This document shows, piece by piece, positions 1 to 8,600 of a DNA stretch of 64,000 nt. The first letter of the stretch is position 1. Each line of letters opens with the position of its first letter. The position numbers were made by a program, and so were the translations under genes. The notes under the pieces are model-generated. The model had not been told where the DNA came from. It saw only the letters and a list, made by a program, of their open reading frames with translations, and did no database searches. The stretch covers positions 186,001 to 250,000 of the forward strand of contig NZ_AP022853.1 in assembly GCF_011764585.1 (NCBI RefSeq), given 5' to 3'. The DNA comes from Sulfurimicrobium lacus (GTDB lineage: Bacteria; Pseudomonadota; Gammaproteobacteria; Burkholderiales; Sulfuricellaceae).

Positions 1-735
1 ACAACCTTCGAAGTCGGTTTCACAAGCGAGGGTACAAAGCTGCTTTCACAAATACTGTCCAACAAGGATTTCGCCTATCCAAAGCCCATGAGCCTGATCA
101 AGGCGCTGGTGGGTCAAGCCACCGACAGTGAGAGTGGGCACATCGTGATGGACTTCTTCGCCGGCTCTGGAACGACTGGGCATGCCGTGTTAGCCCTTAA
201 TGACGAGGACAACGGCAACCGATCCTTCGTCTTGGTATCGTCCACCGAGGCCAATAAGGATGAGCCAGCCAAGAACGTGTGTCGTGACATTACCGCTAAA
301 CGTTTGCGCGCTGCAGTTGAGGGTTATTCCTATCGGGCCAAAACAAAAACCAACAAAGTGGGTGGCCTGGGCGGCGAGTTCGCGTACATGCGAGCCAACC
401 GTATACCGCGCGAAACGCTGGCCATCGACATCCGACATGATCAAATCTGGTTCGTGTTGCAGCAGATGCATGCGAACTCAATTTCACCATTCAAGAACGA
501 AACGCCTATCCAGATATTGGAAGGCGATGAGATTGGCCACGACATCCTGTATGTGCCCCAGTTGAATCAAGAAGCCATTGATGCCTTACGCACCCGGTTC
601 GACACCACATTAAAGCCATGCATCGTATATTCCTGGCAACCGGGCGTGGTGCGCCAGCGTTTCAACGAAAGCCAAATGAAGGTGGAGAAAATCCCTGATT
701 ACCTGATCGAACGTTTTGGGAGGGTCGATCTGTGA
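1..735 (+). CDS. mod: Type III restriction-modification DNA methyltransferase (Mod), 3' part
   Basis: The reading frame is open from base 1, so the N-terminus lies outside the window and about 244 codons are visible. The segment carries the S-adenosylmethionine-binding motif DFFAGSGTTGHA. In beta-class adenine methyltransferases this motif sits C-terminal to the DPPY catalytic motif, which must lie upstream of base 1. The stop codon overlaps the GTG start of the next gene by 4 bases (GTGA), which implies translational coupling. The downstream partner is a DEAH helicase with a PD-ExK nuclease, so the pair is a type III restriction-modification system in which Mod both methylates and provides sequence recognition. 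The rest of the C-terminus gives no further motif that I recognise. Confidence 0.88.
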   Translation, partial: TTFEVGFTSEGTKLLSQILSNKDFAYPKPMSLIKALVGQATDSESGHIVMDFFAGSGTTGHAVLALNDEDNGNRSFVLVSSTEANKDEPAKNVCRDITAKRLRAAVEGYSYRAKTKTNKVGGLGGEFAYMRANRIPRETLAIDIRHDQIWFVLQQMHANSISPFKNETPIQILEGDEIGHDILYVPQLNQEAIDALRTRFDTTLKPCIVYSWQPGVVRQRFNESQMKVEKIPDYLIERFGRVDL

Positions 736-3278
736 GCACACAAACCGTCCTGAAACGCTTTCAGCAAGAAGCGGCGGACAACGGCACCGCTATTCTTCGA
801 ACTTGCCTGACGGAACTCGCCAAGGTGCGCGGCACCGCTAACTACGCGGCCAACAAAAAACTTATTGTGGCCGATGTGGGCGCCTTACTTTTCGAGGCTC
901 CGACCGGCACGGGCAAGACACTGATGGCGGGCCATGTTGCGGAGAATATTTCCCAACTCCACAACATCGCGGGCTTGCCCAAGGTCGTCTGGTTCTGGAT
1001 CGCCCCGTTCTCCGGGTTAATCGACCAAGCCATCCGAACCATTCGCACTGAATTCGACACACTACGCCCCAAGAATCCAGCCACTGACCGCGAGCCCACC
1101 GACCTGAAATCGGGCGACGTGTTTGTCACCACATGGGCCAGCGTGGCCGTGGCCAACGAAGCCAGTCGCAAAGCTAGAACCAGCACGGAGGTCATGCCAT
1201 CAGTCGATGATTTGGTGGTCTACGCACGGGCACAAGGATTTGCCATCGGCGTGATTATTGATGAAGCGCACCACACTTTCCGTGGAGCCACGCAGGCGTT
1301 TGCGTTTTACAAGGAGGTGCTGTCACCCGAGTTGACCATCTTGGCCACTGCCACGCCGCGTGACAAAGATATTGAGACATTCACAAAAGCTACCGGTATC
1401 ACCAACCTCCGCCGAATCACCGTATCCCGTCAACAGGCAATTGATGACCGCCTGATCAAGGAAGGGGTGAAGGTTGCGGTGTTCAAAGCTCCCAATGATG
1501 TGCAGAGCCTGATTGACTTCAAGCGTACCGCCTTGAAGCAAGGCGTAGCAACACACAAGAAGTTGAAGCAAATCATCGCCGAGGCTGGACTCACCGTGAC
1601 CCCCTTGTTACTGGTTCAGGTAGATAGTGAGACAGGTTCGGTCGAACAAGCCACACAATGGCTGAAAGAGCTTGGCTTTCGAACTGATGGCGACAACAGC
1701 TTGATCCGCTCACACACCGCCGACGAACCAGACCCATATTTGTCCACAATAGCTGCTGACGAATCTGTTGAGGTACTCATCTTTAAGTTGGCCGTAGCCA
1801 TCGGCTTTGATGCGCCACGAGCATTTACCTTGGTGTCTTTCCGTCCCAGCCGTGACGAAGATTTTGGCGTGCAGATTGTGGGCCGTATCCTGCGGGTTGA
1901 TCGGCGACTGCAGATCGTAAAGAATCTACCTAACCAGCTAAATAACGGCTATGTATTCTTGTCTGACAACACCGGGCAAACGGGCCTGACTAGTGCCGCC
2001 CAGCGCATCAACGCCGTAAAAACCGAGCTGGCATCAGTTACGACCAACGTGGCCATTGTTTCAATCGGCGGCGATGAGCCTGCGGCACAATTAACCCAGC
2101 ATGGTCAAACCACGTTTCTAACCAGTAGCGGCCATGTGGGCGCTGCTGATTTGGGTGCAGATTCATTTACCTTGGGTGAAGAGATTTCCGGGGGGCGAGC
2201 AAGCTCAGCCATCGGTGGTCTTTGCGGCAGCCCGAGCCTTCAGGATGCTTTATTCGGCGAGTGGGGTTTGACCGTTACGGCGGGTTCCAATTCAACACCG
2301 ACCTCCAAGCCAGGGCCTGCGACGGGAAATTTCTCTTACCCACTGCGTTCCGATTTGGGGGCACCAAGGTCATTTCATCGAGCCATGTTGTCGCTGGAAA
2401 GCACCGATATTGTGAAGGAGATCGTGGGGCGCTTTCGCTTCGACGACGATGCGTTGCTCGTTGCCCAGCAAAACGCAGCCAAGATCATCATGGAAGAGGT
2501 TGAGATTTTCGGAAACCGCAAAGATCGTCCGGAAGAGATTCGAGCGGAATTGGCGCAAAGGGAAATTGATGCCCGAGCCCAACAGGCCCTGTTCAAAGCG
2601 GACGATTACGACGTTATCGATGTGCGCGTGTTGCACCAAGCGTTAATGGCTCAACTAACGAAAGAGATCGAGCACCGGGGAATCGACCACCTCTTCGACA
2701 CTGACGCAAAGGTCCGTTCCGGCCTGCACAAAATTTTGGCTCTGCGCCCCTTGCAGTTGAAGCGGGCCATTTCCGAGGCCGTTGCCAATCACACCGTCAG
2801 CGAAGAAGCCGATCCCATCCCGTCGGAAATGCGGTCTTTTATTGCGCTTGATCCGGCACGCCTCAACCTCTATGGCGTATTCCCGGATGACCTGAATACA
2901 TGGGAGCGCCCATTTGCAGAACATTTAGACGACGACCTTACTGGCACGGTGTTGTGGTGGCATAGAAATCCGCCACGCAAGCGCTTCTCTGTAGGCATGC
3001 CATTGCCAGGCCAACCCGATTTTTATCCAGATTTCATCGTCGGCGTGAAAGACAGAACACGTGGAAACGGTATTCTACTAATGGAAACCAAGCGAGTAAT
3101 CAACGACCAAGAACGCAACGCATTAGTGAAGGCTCAGGCCGAGCATCCCGACTATGCCAAGGTTATGATGATTTACTGGGAAGAAAAGCGGGACTGGCAA
3201 ATTGTGGAATACGACCCAAGAAACGACAAAAATTATTTAGATCGTGTCCTGCGCCCAGAGTTAATGGTGACATATTGA
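732..3278 (+). CDS. res: Type III restriction endonuclease subunit (Res), helicase-nuclease
   Basis: 848 residues, GTG start overlapping the stop of mod. Superfamily 2 helicase motifs appear in order: Walker A EAPTGTGKT near residue 55, IIDEAHH (DEAH) near 175, TATP near 205, and a motif VI-like stretch with VGRILRVDRR near 385. Near the C-terminus, FYPDF (about 765) and LLMETKR (about 785) fit a PD-ExK nuclease core. In type III systems Res uses ATP to communicate between two head-to-head unmethylated sites and then cuts. It is somewhat shorter than the roughly 900-1000 residues I expect for classical Res subunits, but all core motifs are present, so it is probably functional. The endonuclease spacing is less typical than the helicase part. 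Confidence 0.88.
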   Translation: MSTQTVLKRFQQEAADNGTAILRTCLTELAKVRGTANYAANKKLIVADVGALLFEAPTGTGKTLMAGHVAENISQLHNIAGLPKVVWFWIAPFSGLIDQAIRTIRTEFDTLRPKNPATDREPTDLKSGDVFVTTWASVAVANEASRKARTSTEVMPSVDDLVVYARAQGFAIGVIIDEAHHTFRGATQAFAFYKEVLSPELTILATATPRDKDIETFTKATGITNLRRITVSRQQAIDDRLIKEGVKVAVFKAPNDVQSLIDFKRTALKQGVATHKKLKQIIAEAGLTVTPLLLVQVDSETGSVEQATQWLKELGFRTDGDNSLIRSHTADEPDPYLSTIAADESVEVLIFKLAVAIGFDAPRAFTLVSFRPSRDEDFGVQIVGRILRVDRRLQIVKNLPNQLNNGYVFLSDNTGQTGLTSAAQRINAVKTELASVTTNVAIVSIGGDEPAAQLTQHGQTTFLTSSGHVGAADLGADSFTLGEEISGGRASSAIGGLCGSPSLQDALFGEWGLTVTAGSNSTPTSKPGPATGNFSYPLRSDLGAPRSFHRAMLSLESTDIVKEIVGRFRFDDDALLVAQQNAAKIIMEEVEIFGNRKDRPEEIRAELAQREIDARAQQALFKADDYDVIDVRVLHQALMAQLTKEIEHRGIDHLFDTDAKVRSGLHKILALRPLQLKRAISEAVANHTVSEEADPIPSEMRSFIALDPARLNLYGVFPDDLNTWERPFAEHLDDDLTGTVLWWHRNPPRKRFSVGMPLPGQPDFYPDFIVGVKDRTRGNGILLMETKRVINDQERNALVKAQAEHPDYAKVMMIYWEEKRDWQIVEYDPRNDKNYLDRVLRPELMVTY

Positions 3279-3535: not shown

Positions 3536-3706
3536 ATGGTGGACGAAACAGAGCGCCTATTTTTTGTTGGCCTGCCGACAGAAAATATTTGTGCCGCGTT
3601 CATCAATACGCTTGGTGAGATGACCACATTAAATAATGTGCATGCACGTGAACTGTACGCGCGGGCAAGTAAACAGGTTTGCAGCCCTTCACCGGCCTTA
3701 ACCTAA
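3536..3706 (+). CDS. Possible small protein, 56 residues, unknown
   Basis: An ATG-initiated frame of 56 codons (MVDETERLFFVGL...) ends 23 bases before the start of the AAA+ ATPase gene. No convincing Shine-Dalgarno sequence precedes it and no family is recognised. It could be a leader peptide or a small antitoxin-like gene, or a chance open frame. It is listed because the interval has no other gene and the frame is colinear with the operon downstream. Confidence 0.2.
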   Translation: MVDETERLFFVGLPTENICAAFINTLGEMTTLNNVHARELYARASKQVCSPSPALT

Positions 3707-3729
3707 ACAAATCCGAAAGGAGATTCGTT

Positions 3730-5319
3730 ATGGCTAAAAGTTATTCCAGCACCGGCTCGCCGCCCAGGCCAAAACCCTCGTTTGTTGATGGTTTTGAGCT
3801 TGCTGTTTTTGATCACTCGCGCTTGCTTCTCCCTTGTGCCCTTGTCACTGAAATCGCGGACGCACAGGGCCGGGAGCGGGAAGAGATCGCGGAAAAGGCG
3901 AAAGCCAAAAAAGCATCCCAAAAACCGCAGCCCTTTGACTACCGCGACCGCGCAAGTGGCGGCGATCTGGCCTGTATCCGCGCCGGCACCGAGCACGACC
4001 TGGAAGACGCTCAAGCGCTGGCCGTCAAAATGTTCAAGCGCACGAAATCCACATTCGACAGCGTTACCCTCGATTTCTCGCGTGACCTGTTTGTTGCCGT
4101 CGCCCTTTATTTTGTGTATCAGGAAAAGCATTGCACCTTTCCGCTCATGCTCGATTTTCTCACTGACAAGGCATGGGAGTCGGGACTGCAAATGCTTTGT
4201 GCGCTCGTAAATGGCAGTGGTGAATCGCCCGCAGCCACCAAATTCCTCTCGGATTTCCATTCCGGCACCCGAAAACTCGGTGAAAACACGGAAAGCATGA
4301 TCCAGCGCTGTGCAATACACTGGCGCGTCGCCTTTTCGCCGGTTGGCAAGCTCCCGAAGCTCAAGAAAACTGTGCGCGCAGTCCCGATCTTCCACCCGGA
4401 GGCTGTTGCCAAAGCACTTACTATGGTTGGCAATTTGCGTGAAGAACGCCGCGCCGGAGGCGAGCGCGTGTTAATGAACGCTCAGTACAATGACGGCCTG
4501 CGTACAGTACCGGACGCAAGGCAGGCAGGGGCAAAGTTGGAAGACGCCAAGAGCCAATTTGAGAATCTGGTGGAGCCCATCGCCAGGTTGCAGACCGATC
4601 TTGTCCTGGCCAGCGCCATGCGCCCGGAAGATTTCCGCATCACGCCGATTCTTCTTCTCGGAGATCCCGGCATCGGCAAAACCTTTCTGGCCATGCAACT
4701 GGCGGACGCCCTGGGTGTCAGTACCGACAAGATCAGCGCAGGCGGCGCGCAAGGCGGCTTCCAGATAACGGGATCACATACAAGCTGGCACACCGCCCGC
4801 CCCGGCTCATTGTTTTCCCTGCTGGCCGAAGGCAAGTCTGCTGCGCCGGTATTGGTGGTTGACGAAGTGGACAAAATCGCCAATTCGCAATATCCGGTTT
4901 TGCCGGTACTGCTAGACCTCTTTGAGCCGGATACCGCCGCCAACTTCAAGGATGAGTTTTTCGAAATGCAGTTCGACGCCAGCCGGGTAATTTTCATACT
5001 CACAGCCAATAGCCTGGAAGGCGTACCCGCACCTCTGTTGTCTCGGCTGGAGGTGTTCGACGTGCCGCGCCCGGAGCCTGAGCAGCGCTTGCGCATCATC
5101 GAGGATGCGGCTCGGCATTTGCGCCGGAAAACCAAAAAGCCGATTGAACTCGACAGGGACGTTTGCGAGCACTTGGCCGACCGCGTAGACCTCGACTTGC
5201 GCAAAACCACGCGCCTGATCAAAGAGGCTTTTTCCAAAGCGCTGGCAGCCGGCAAAAAAACCGCTCGCTTCGAAATGCCTAAAAAAGAAGGACGCCGCGC
5301 AATCGGGTTCGGGTGCTGA
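3730..5319 (+). CDS. AAA+ ATPase with Lon-like ATPase core, accessory operon
   Basis: 529 residues from ATG 3730, chosen because AAAGGAG at 3716-3722 sits 7 bases upstream; an upstream in-frame TTG has no such site. The C-terminal half is an AAA+ module: Walker A GDPGIGKT near residue 310, Walker B VLVVDEVDKI near 375, sensor 1 TANS near 424 and an arginine-finger-type LLSRLE near 437, in the arrangement of Lon-family ATPase domains. No Lon protease domain follows. The N-terminal half (about residues 60-150) has an IRAGTEHDLEDAQ stretch that reminds me of the segment after Walker A in TraG/VirD4 coupling proteins, but it has no P-loop of its own. An exonuclease gene follows after 3 bases, so the two are probably co-translated. 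Function is unknown; a role in defence or in a mobile element is inferred from context. Confidence 0.8.
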   Translation: MAKSYSSTGSPPRPKPSFVDGFELAVFDHSRLLLPCALVTEIADAQGREREEIAEKAKAKKASQKPQPFDYRDRASGGDLACIRAGTEHDLEDAQALAVKMFKRTKSTFDSVTLDFSRDLFVAVALYFVYQEKHCTFPLMLDFLTDKAWESGLQMLCALVNGSGESPAATKFLSDFHSGTRKLGENTESMIQRCAIHWRVAFSPVGKLPKLKKTVRAVPIFHPEAVAKALTMVGNLREERRAGGERVLMNAQYNDGLRTVPDARQAGAKLEDAKSQFENLVEPIARLQTDLVLASAMRPEDFRITPILLLGDPGIGKTFLAMQLADALGVSTDKISAGGAQGGFQITGSHTSWHTARPGSLFSLLAEGKSAAPVLVVDEVDKIANSQYPVLPVLLDLFEPDTAANFKDEFFEMQFDASRVIFILTANSLEGVPAPLLSRLEVFDVPRPEPEQRLRIIEDAARHLRRKTKKPIELDRDVCEHLADRVDLDLRKTTRLIKEAFSKALAAGKKTARFEMPKKEGRRAIGFGC

Positions 5320-5322
5320 CAC

Positions 5323-5829
5323 ATGCTGATTTTCTTCGACACCGAATTCACCGAGTTAGGCATTGACCCACGCCTTATCAGCATCGGTCTGGTGAGCGAG
5401 GACGGGCGGGAATTCTATGCGGAAATGTCCGACACCTACCGGGCCGCTGATTGCTGCGCCTTCGTCCACGAAGCCGTCTTGCCGCATCTGGAAGGCAGCG
5501 AGGCGCTCATGACCATGTACGAACTGACCCTGCGCCTTGGTGCTTGGCTCGAAGACTTCGAACAGCCGGTAAAGCTTGCGACCGACTCGATTTCATGGGA
5601 CTGGCCGTGGATACAGAAGATTTTTTATGTCACAGGCACATGGCCGGCCAATCTCGACGGCAAGCCGGAGGTGCTGTCCTTCAGCGCGGTCTTTGACGAT
5701 GCCATGGAAAAAGCTTTTGCGGACGGACTGCGCCGGCACCATGCGCTCGATGATGCGAAGGCCAACCGGCTGGGCTGGCTGGCCTGGATGGACGCAACCA
5801 AGGATACCGGGAGTGGACAAAATGAGTGA
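5323..5829 (+). CDS. DEDDh-type 3'-5' exonuclease / exoribonuclease
   Basis: 168 residues starting 3 bases after the AAA+ gene. The acidic motifs of the DnaQ/RNase T fold are visible: FFDTEFTE at the N-terminus (DxE), an Asp in DSISWDW near residue 87, and HHALDDAKAN near 140 (H-x4-D). The shortness and sequence style match the Rv2179c-like 3'-5' exoribonuclease family rather than the DNA polymerase III proofreading subunit. The gene overlaps the next one by 8 bases. Pairing an AAA+ motor with a small nuclease in an island next to a restriction system suggests nucleic-acid processing in defence, but RNA repair or turnover is equally possible. Confidence 0.8.
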   Translation: MLIFFDTEFTELGIDPRLISIGLVSEDGREFYAEMSDTYRAADCCAFVHEAVLPHLEGSEALMTMYELTLRLGAWLEDFEQPVKLATDSISWDWPWIQKIFYVTGTWPANLDGKPEVLSFSAVFDDAMEKAFADGLRRHHALDDAKANRLGWLAWMDATKDTGSGQNE

Positions 5830-6903: not shown

Positions 6904-7050
6904 TGGCGCACCACCAGGAACAAGATCGCCGGAGCCGTTTTGCGGTGACTCACGCCTAATCAGTATTTGAAGAACAGCGTCAAAAATACCAAAAGTACAA
7001 TCTATCTCTCATGTCATAATTCTGCTTTTTTCAAGGGATTCCAACAAAAA

Positions 7051-8076
7051 ATGAGCATTGAAAAAGCGCATGTTAGTTTCTACAAAATAACTCAATGTGC
7101 TTACTTCGCACGTGGTGATGAAACCTCATTATTTGGATCTGTTCAGGAAGTTCTTGAAGATTTGCAGGCATGGAGTGCCGGAAAAAAACTGATCGAGACC
7201 AAAGTCAGTGAGGTCATTGAATCCGACTCCAGCGGTAACACTTTTCTGCTGGATATTGAGACAAAGCAAGGAACTTGGCTAATCACTACGTGGAACGAAA
7301 CGGCATCCACTGACGGGCAAGTGGCTTCAGTTCAGGGCGAGTCGAATGTTGGTGAAGCGGAAATTCACATGAACGGCATCGCTGAAGGAAGCATTCCTGG
7401 CTACGCCACATATTTTTGGGTCATTCCTACAAGAAATATTTTTGCGAGTATCCGTTTCCAACATCCCTACACAGCGCAAAAACCCTTTCGTGCTTACGTC
7501 AACAAATTCATGGAATGTCATGGAAGACATGTTGTTGTAGGCGACCCTGAGCCAGAATCCGATTACCCAATCCTTGGTTATATCAATGCGACAGGAGACG
7601 ACCCTCGGCATGCATACGCACGATTCAGAACTGAGTTGTTACGTAACCCCGGTCAGAAGCAATTTATGCTCGACAATCTCCACAGAATTACGAAAATTGT
7701 TCGGAAGGAAACCCTGAATTTATCAGAGAGCGAGCACCTCTCACTCTGGCAAAAACTCTTACGACAGGCCAATCTATCTGCACCTCAAGCACTTCCGATT
7801 GAACCGCATATTAGTTATGACATTCCATTTCATCCAACAGTAGAAGATATCAACAATCTTTTTTTATCATGGGAAGAAAACACAGAGAGCGCATGGGATG
7901 ACTTTGGAGTAAGGATTTCAGGCGATCAAAATATACACTGGGTTAGCCATACATTTGCCAGGAAAGAGTTCGAATTAAACATTGAGCGCGACAATCCTGA
8001 GGTCGTGAATTCAGAGTCATTGATCGATGCCGTGTTGAACAACAAAAATCATATTTTGGCCGTAGTTCCATCGTGA
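7051..8076 (+). CDS. Unknown soluble protein, first gene of a two-gene cassette
   Basis: 341 residues from ATG 7051 (MSIEKAHVSFYKI), preceded by AAGGGA at about 12 bases; an in-frame TTG at 6967 is possible but has a weak context. There is no signal peptide or transmembrane segment. The N-terminal half appears beta-rich (ITTWNETA, ATYFWVIPTRNIFASI) and the C-terminal half alpha-helical. Codon use and base composition are AT-richer than those of almost all other genes in the window, a sign of horizontal transfer. The stop overlaps the start of a four-helix membrane protein by 4 bases (GTGA). No family is recognised. A sensor-plus-membrane-effector arrangement, as in Kiwa-type two-gene defence systems, is one hypothesis; homology to them is not claimed. 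Confidence 0.7.
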   Translation: MSIEKAHVSFYKITQCAYFARGDETSLFGSVQEVLEDLQAWSAGKKLIETKVSEVIESDSSGNTFLLDIETKQGTWLITTWNETASTDGQVASVQGESNVGEAEIHMNGIAEGSIPGYATYFWVIPTRNIFASIRFQHPYTAQKPFRAYVNKFMECHGRHVVVGDPEPESDYPILGYINATGDDPRHAYARFRTELLRNPGQKQFMLDNLHRITKIVRKETLNLSESEHLSLWQKLLRQANLSAPQALPIEPHISYDIPFHPTVEDINNLFLSWEENTESAWDDFGVRISGDQNIHWVSHTFARKEFELNIERDNPEVVNSESLIDAVLNNKNHILAVVPS

Positions 8077-8600
8077 GAACTGTTACTGTCGTTTTGTTGT
8101 TTATTCTTTGGGCATCGGCAGTTGCTGGCGGCTACCTTTACGGGCAGAACGTTCCATTTTCAGAACAATGGCCCTTGTTTGAAGCTTTGCGGACAACGTC
8201 GGCAATCATCTTTGCCGTTGTCGGCGCTTGGCTCGCCATTGTTTATCCAGAGCGACTCCGTCTCAGCCTAAGCCCGCCGAACGGAGGCGGGCAAGCAAAG
8301 TCACAAAACAATATCGGCATACTCCTTTCCCCTGCGGTTAATTCGACGGCTGTACTTTGTATTGTTTTACTGGTCGGCGTTTCTGCACCACTCTTAAAGA
8401 GGGCAGACTTTGCCCATGCTTATATTTCAGAGTGGAGGGGATTGAGTTATGCACTACTTGTTGCACTCACGCTTTGGCAAGCATGGACAGTTATTCTTAC
8501 TTTGGTTCCTGCTGATCTTATTTTGTCACGAGCCAATCAAGAAAATAGACGCCGTGAAGTCCTGGATGGGTTGGGCAAAACAAGCGTCAAAGCAAAGTAA
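8073..8600 (+). CDS. Four-helix inner-membrane protein, second gene of the cassette
   Basis: 175 residues from GTG 8073, overlapping the stop of the previous gene. Hydrophobic segments lie at about residues 5-24, 43-62, 86-107 and 125-148, with a positively charged C-terminal tail (RANQENRRREV...KTSVKAK), so a cytoplasmic C-terminus is likely. There is no enzyme motif. The gene is AT-rich like its partner. Small multi-helix proteins coupled to a soluble sensor are a common effector type in anti-phage systems, where they permeabilise the membrane, but an ion channel, transporter subunit or membrane anchor would look the same at this level. Confidence 0.68.
   Translation: MRTVTVVLLFILWASAVAGGYLYGQNVPFSEQWPLFEALRTTSAIIFAVVGAWLAIVYPERLRLSLSPPNGGGQAKSQNNIGILLSPAVNSTAVLCIVLLVGVSAPLLKRADFAHAYISEWRGLSYALLVALTLWQAWTVILTLVPADLILSRANQENRRREVLDGLGKTSVKAK

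Follow-up and report, generated by a model that had tools for sequence, protein, structure and literature searches.

This locus raises the question of what two overlapping, AT-rich genes of Sulfurimicrobium lacus do together. They lie in a stretch of 64,000 nucleotides (NZ_AP022853.1, positions 186,001 to 250,000, forward strand), here called the window, and encode a soluble protein followed by a small membrane protein (Table 1). Judged by its profile matches, the pair is a member of PDC-M18, a two-gene candidate catalogued in PADLOC, and we call its proteins M18A and M18B. With a probability of about 0.5, we consider the PDC-M18 cassette to be an abortive-infection pair of the RexAB type, a kind that is often prophage-borne. 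This mechanistic assignment is the new element of the analysis, and it is moderately supported.

Identity and composition of the gene pair

We compared both proteins with PADLOC-DB, and found that M18A matched six PDC-M18A models (best PDLC04494, E 3e-118 over residues 1-337), and M18B matched five PDC-M18B models (best PDLC04499, E 1.5e-70 over residues 1-173). The features of PDC-M18 membership, an M18A profile, an M18B profile and the adjacency of the two genes, were all present; the near full-length matches and the gene order are the same as in PDC-M18, and no difference was found. In PHROGs, M18A fell into phrog_24371 and M18B into phrog_37654 (E 4.2e-7), both phage families of unknown function. 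An earlier note on this DNA had found no recognised family for either protein and had proposed an undescribed two-gene system; both statements give way to these matches. The PADLOC scan output carries no description for the PDC-M18A and PDC-M18B models, and in excerpts of two papers PDC entries figure as putative or unpublished candidates, most of which still await experimental validation. The string 'PDC-M18' was not found in a literature search, which did not cover preprints. Pfam and NCBIfam (June 2026) contained no family for either window protein, M18B having one sub-threshold Pfam match (E 0.11), and the Pfam matches of other M18A and M18B family members were scattered and weak. Sequence searches of the PDB gave 0 hits or weak ones only (centrin, calmodulin and CueR for M18A; SLC15A1 for M18B), none of them credible.

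The stop codon of the first gene and the start codon of the second share the bases GTGA, and translation of the two genes is likely coupled via this overlap. An alternative TTG start at 6967 would give an M18A of 369 residues, whereas the aligned homologues start at the Met of 7051. The GC content of the cassette is 45.4%, compared with 60.5% for the window, and only 4 of 1249 sliding windows (1550 bases) were as AT-rich or more, the minimum starting near 6950. The overlap, the deviant composition and the pairing of a soluble with a four-helix membrane protein had all been described in the earlier note; the first two were borne out by these results and the last by the predicted helices and structure models given below.

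Pairing, distribution and phage neighbourhoods

A search of 2.9 million viral contigs yielded 101 pattern hits, 97 of which encode M18A, and the best 80 of these 97 were analysed. Two of the 80 loci (L054 and L061) end inside M18A. In all of the remaining 78, which include loci with a 5'-cut M18A and one with a split M18A (L049), M18B lies 3' of M18A (74 complete, and 4 with the start before the contig end). When the search was started from M18B, M18A was on the same strand and just upstream in 73/73 viral loci; by eye, 17 contigs of this search were not among the 80. The spacing check was passed outright in 72 of the 73, and the other locus (L136) was flagged, its stop-to-stop B frame extending back into A. 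Of the 74 viral loci in which B is complete, 73 had an A-B spacing between -17 and +25 bases, by the start codons that we chose; the exception was L049. Among 11 phage and plasmid matches, 9 were opened (H3 and H10 being second records of the same phage and of a plasmid from the same strain), and both genes were present in 9/9 regions. The partner gene, whose co-occurrence the earlier note had proposed to check, was thus found wherever these loci keep the end of A or were detected through B. As far as the searches were run, they gave neither a partnerless homologue nor a relative labelled as housekeeping, the two findings that the note had expected to speak against a two-gene system.

After near-duplicates and short pieces were dropped, 52 of 78 M18A and 55 of 74 M18B relatives were kept for alignment. 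Across 52 non-redundant pairs, the pairwise identities of A and B were correlated with a rho of 0.91 (maximum over 500 shuffles, 0.24), and no partner swapping was seen at the thresholds used. Broken copies of M18A were also observed. In a genome of the same order (G048, contig C34 16862-19522; L003-L005, L209 and L210), M18A is broken into three pieces, the second and third about 1.7 kb apart, and sits beside a 175-residue M18B open reading frame. In the viral contig locus L049 (5775-6799), M18A is split into two overlapping frames and the M18B open reading frame is complete.

Besides the 97 viral contig stretches, relatives turned up in 6 phage records (Pseudomonas, Halomonas, Vibrio and Bacillus) and in 5 plasmid records, one of which shows the gene order of phage Ps59. 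The pair was rare in the genomes sampled (2/100 relatives, 1/369 of the class and 2/399 of the order, the samples overlapping and each including the window's own genome), and a single-protein scan of the genome contigs gave no relative (22 pattern hits, 0 confirmed). Since the predominance of phages and viral contigs partly reflects where we searched, we do not claim that a chromosomal island is an unusual home; likewise, the share of copies in prophages cannot be stated, because genomes and viral contigs were searched differently. Nearly identical M18A and M18B proteins, in similarly ordered neighbourhoods, are encoded by 'Bacillus pumilus' phage vB_BpuM-ZY1 and Halomonas phage vB_HboP_4908 (L008 and L010), and the Bacillus host label of the former looks doubtful.

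Four of the 5 opened phage records (L007-L010) have, on the same strand as the pair, a repressor or a repressor-like protein that ends no more than 1.2 kb upstream of it. It is labelled 'repressor' in L007 and 'repressor LexA' in L008, has a CI C-terminal domain according to its note in L009, where it directly adjoins the pair, and is an S24 peptidase in L010; no repressor is annotated in the fifth record (L006). The order repressor-A-B is that of lambda cI-rexA-rexB and of CarolAnn 45-44-43. Other slots were between a Q antiterminator and a holin (L027), beside capsid genes (L033 and L041) and before an endolysin-like gene (L070), and the pair of the Vibrio phage adjoins Septu and a type IV restriction enzyme. 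Neighbour scans covered 145 of the 167 neighbour genes listed, and the commonest PHROG matches among these 145 proteins were integrase and repressor families. Promoter and terminator counts were near chance. These neighbourhoods are the pattern of a temperate-phage cargo gene pair. We also observed a RES-domain protein (PF08808) downstream of a divergent M18 pair (L088, 8011-9177), and a long open reading frame downstream of the pair in the sister loci of L088 (L087-L092).

Predicted folds, Rex-like systems and alternatives

M18A has no membrane helices, and its AlphaFold2 model, the structure prediction suggested in the earlier note, was a confident one of mixed strands and helices (predicted local distance difference test, pLDDT, 92.5; predicted template-modelling score, pTM, 0.85). 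In the family alignment, W41, T50, I115, G117, Y121, W123 and G286 are invariant, positions 266 and 284 are acidic (D/E in 89% and 83% of members) and positions 45, 135, 215, 218, 235, 304 and 332 are basic (K/R in at least 75%), with no obvious conserved catalytic set. M18B has four predicted transmembrane helices in the window protein and in 53 of 56 family members, and by the positive-inside rule both of its termini are predicted to be cytoplasmic in each of the 51 members (of 56) that have four helices when a second threshold is applied. Its AlphaFold2 model consists of long helices (pLDDT 89.8); the strongly conserved motif F47-G51-W53-A55-Y58-P59 falls within helix 2 or at its end, and the polar residues S91 and Q136 lie within helices 3 and 4.

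Foldseek comparison of the M18A model with the PDB gave three matches of probability above 0.2 among the best 50 of 418, 7qoo_N (0.82), 6c0w_K (0.33) and 6eqt_B (0.25). The last two are from CENP-N entries; 7qoo_N, from the human CCAN complex, was taken as CENP-N on account of its chain letter N. In BFVD, six phage proteins (277-322 residues) were matched with probability 1.00 and template-modelling scores (TM-scores) of 0.28-0.50, and the match named 'Exonuclease' of phage PTXU04 (284 residues) had an E-value of 1.1e-4, a probability of 1.00 and a TM-score of 0.34. By length and name, the latter is presumably PTXU04 gp31 (284 residues), which is RdgC by Pfam ('Putative exonuclease, RdgC', 2.6e-7); gp24 is equally long and has no RdgC match. 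In the excerpts of the published papers on which we draw here and below, RexA, RdgC and the yeast kinetochore proteins IML3/CHL4 are structural homologues, and RexA homologues dimerise and bind DNA non-specifically (PMC11077077), while Iml3/Chl4 are the fungal orthologues of CENP-L/CENP-N (PMC5777823). The PDB matches to CENP-N and the BFVD match to an apparent RdgC therefore indicate, from two separate libraries, one published fold group. A RexA/RdgC/CENP-N-like fold of the M18A model is indirectly supported, not proved, at low scores.

The M18A fold matches, together with the fold common to RexA, RdgC and the yeast counterparts of CENP-L/N, are among the grounds for the RexAB-type proposal, and the predicted architecture is also that of Rex systems, with a soluble A first and a four-helix B second in one operon. 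By analogy, we infer dimerisation, DNA binding, triggering, pore formation and defence for M18AB. M18A would wait on DNA as a dimeric clamp, silent before infection, until triggered by a protein of an invading phage or by an abnormal intermediate of that phage's replication or recombination; M18A would then engage and activate M18B, which would oligomerise, breach the inner membrane and halt growth before the phage multiplies. The earlier note had likened the pair to the soluble sensor and membrane effector of known anti-phage systems, and this logic stands as the best reading, with the pairing upheld, although the system is a catalogued and not an undescribed one. More tentatively, at somewhat less than even odds, PDC-M18 may be a large, previously unrecognised RexAB-type branch, in which M18A is a DNA-encircling dimer of RexA/RdgC/CENP-L-N fold and M18B the membrane effector.

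The closest experimentally studied analogue of M18AB is RexABpp of Pseudomonas putida (PP_5643/PP_5644), a prophage-borne soluble DNA binder plus four-helix effector located downstream of a CI-like repressor. Its defence needs both genes, its A protein binds DNA non-specifically, and overexpression of A leads to B-dependent membrane damage and growth arrest; no A-B contact was seen in two-hybrid tests and no depolarisation was found (PMC12894663). RexABpp is linked to RexA by HHpred, whereas a link between M18A and RexA was not found by hhalign. The P. putida RexB is not one of our 74 M18B sequences, since its seven published residue positions, the only ones compared, match 0/74 of them (best 3/7).

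Like M18, lambda RexA/RexB consists of a soluble and then a four-helix membrane protein, several M18 phage relatives also lie downstream of a repressor, and a shared fold is suggested indirectly; the differences are in length (RexA 279 residues, M18A 341), the missing sequence similarity and the chromosomal site of the window copy. DNA binding of lambda RexA is uncorrelated with exclusion (PMC11077077). A record named 'Campylobacter phage CJLB-4' (MW057783) encodes a RexA identical to that of lambda at lambda-like coordinates, and is probably lambda under a wrong name. Accepted Rex-like pairs match the sizes of M18 (341/175 residues), with 370/178 in Gordonia phage CarolAnn (gp44/gp43), 372/165 in Mycobacterium phage Sbash (gp30/gp31) and 337/200 in Toast. 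The CarolAnn and Sbash genes overlap as well, and show no detectable sequence similarity to M18; both pairs defend against phages, with a similar logic proposed (PMC6426606, PMC6426596), and both proteins are required (PMC12894663). RdgC is a housekeeping, recombination-associated DNA ring, to which M18A is likened by the one BFVD match that fits an RdgC-family phage protein; RdgC is acidic overall, as is the window M18A (net charge of 19 RdgC proteins, -17 to +3), and the window's genome encodes its own RdgC elsewhere.

Several results weigh against the RexAB-type assignment. No mechanism or defence assay for PDC-M18 was found in the literature search. The window M18A is acidic, with a net charge of -18 (family -20 to +18). 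None of the PDB matches reached E <0.001, the best CENP-N match had a TM-score of only 0.21, and the solved structures of RexA (8TWQ) and RdgC were absent from the best 50 of 418; in BFVD, five of the six strong matches are uncharacterised and lambda RexA was absent from the best 50. Of the 65 viral loci that extend 3 kb or more upstream of the pair, only 16 have a repressor homologue on the same strand within 4 kb upstream, a lower bound limited by the search seeds, and the window copy sits in a chromosomal island with no adjacent repressor. Known defence genes were scarce around the pairs, none of the 25 PADLOC families listed (of 63) matching more than 2 of the 145 neighbours. Profile comparison by hhalign gave a probability of at most 0.3% for M18A against RexA, CarolAnn/Sbash, Butters/Toast and RdgC (lambda RexA 0.2%, RdgC 0.3%) and at most 0.7% for M18B against RexB and its analogues (lambda RexB 0.3%), and an unfiltered hmmsearch of M18B gave RexB 6 bits through membrane helices only, which we did not count.

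Accepted members behave likewise in part of these comparisons. Lambda RexA gave 0.1% against CarolAnn/Sbash, 0.5% against Butters/Toast, 4.1% against Butters gp30 alone and 0.1% against RdgC, and CarolAnn/Sbash-B against Butters/Toast-B reached 16%. Since accepted members fail the same test, it cannot decide Rex-like membership, and the comparison of M18A with RdgC is uninformative because the published relation of RexA to RdgC likewise gives no signal. Repressor proximity varies among accepted members too (Sbash, Butters), the CarolAnn pair being repressor-adjacent and the Sbash pair lying near holin and tail genes. The Pfam families of RexA and RexB (PF15969, PF15968) had no match in the window proteins and were absent among the families listed for 53 and 56 family members (15/15 and 25/34 families), and PF15969 had no match in the window's own genome. 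DUF4747, named in print for RexA-like proteins, matched nothing in 274 genomes nor in the controls, and is hence uninformative; RexA is not mentioned in the main text of DefensePredictor.

The division of labour may also be the opposite one. In Kiwa, sensing falls to the membrane protein and the effector role to the soluble, DNA-binding one, and a Kiwa-like M18B would sense the infection site while M18A blocked phage DNA replication or transcription. The parts are alike, a membrane protein and a soluble protein of about 300 residues, KwaB (PF16162) having 303 residues and the preceding gene, presumed KwaA, 193 in one genome of the class. The gene order, however, is reversed, with the presumed KwaA first, and profile similarity is missing, M18A having no match to the KwaB Pfam family and hhalign giving less than 1% for both proteins against single KwaA and KwaB sequences. 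Membership of Kiwa was rejected on these three points, and a Kiwa-like action is unlikely; no Kiwa-titled entry was among the best 50 PDB matches of either model, the presence of a Kiwa structure in the library being unchecked. A different reversal, in which a toxic or antiviral soluble protein is kept tethered and silent by its membrane partner until infection, is the logic of Butters gp30/gp31 (PMC12894663), whose sizes are similar (403/187 residues). An intact M18B beside a broken M18A, as in G048, would be expected if A were costly, but a single broken copy is anecdotal, A is the trigger in the Rex model too, and the M18A alignment offers no obvious catalytic residues, which makes this arrangement quite improbable.

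Two further explanations start from the phage setting. Small prophage membrane proteins often block phage DNA entry, and M18B might exclude related phages by blocking DNA injection, with M18A as a regulatory or assembly partner. The occurrence of the pair in temperate phages fits this, yet an entry block needs no strict co-inheritance with a 340-residue soluble, DNA-clamp-like protein, and we regard superinfection exclusion as equally improbable. In lambda, RexA biases the switch independently of RexB (PMC11077077); as a RexA/RdgC-like DNA binder, M18A could similarly tune the lysis-lysogeny switch or protect the DNA of the prophage, and M18B would anchor M18A in the membrane. Against such lysogeny control, the pair is also found away from immunity regions, next to head genes, flanked by Q antiterminator and holin, on plasmids and in a chromosomal island, and the chance of this reading is slighter still. 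The RexAB-type assignment remains the reading that we prefer.

Island context and significance

The pair lies in a low-GC stretch of about 20 kb (44-58% GC), some 3 kb from its downstream end; the flanking DNA has 65-71% GC on the upstream side and 61-70% over the first 4 kb on the downstream side. Type III restriction-modification genes share this stretch, in agreement with the defence-type island of the earlier note.

Table 1. Features of the window, with the M18 pair and its restriction-modification context
Feature	Position	Strand	Description
M18A homologue (PDC-M18A)	7051..8076	+	341 aa, ATG start, soluble; proposed RexA/RdgC-fold DNA-clamp sensor
M18B homologue (PDC-M18B)	8073..8600	+	175 aa, GTG start, four-helix membrane protein; proposed RexB-like effector
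GTGA overlap, M18A stop / M18B start	8073..8076	+	from sequence
Type III methyltransferase, C-terminal part	88..735	+	context; Pfam, PADLOC
ResIII/DEAD-domain restriction subunit	732..3278	+	context; Pfam, PADLOC

Also encoded in the stretch are an AAA ATPase, a HAD-type protein and, with a match below the family cut-off, an RNase-AS-like exonuclease. The AAA ATPase, which has a Lon-like core and a weak TRIP13 match, and the exonuclease that follows it (together 3679-5829) are possibly another uncharacterised pair. Two neighbouring genes farther upstream in the low-GC stretch (contig 182354-184374; L115, 14354-16374) are perhaps a further two-gene unit; we take them to resemble a DUF5131-type protein and a TcmP-type partner. 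A short-unit tandem repeat, open in several frames, lies directly before the type III methyltransferase gene (L115, 16382-16813).

Some 70 years after RexAB was first noticed, its activation is still unexplained, and only five RexAB-like systems had been described (PMC12894663). If PDC-M18 is of the RexAB type, a listed defence candidate would gain a testable mechanism, and dozens of diverse natural pairs would become available to probe how A senses and how B opens. A defence sensor with the fold of a recombination protein and a kinetochore subunit would link sensing to DNA geometry. If the reading is true, Rex-type defence would be one recurring prophage strategy that has diverged past sequence recognition, rather than the five isolated cases of a paper from 2026 (PMC12894663).
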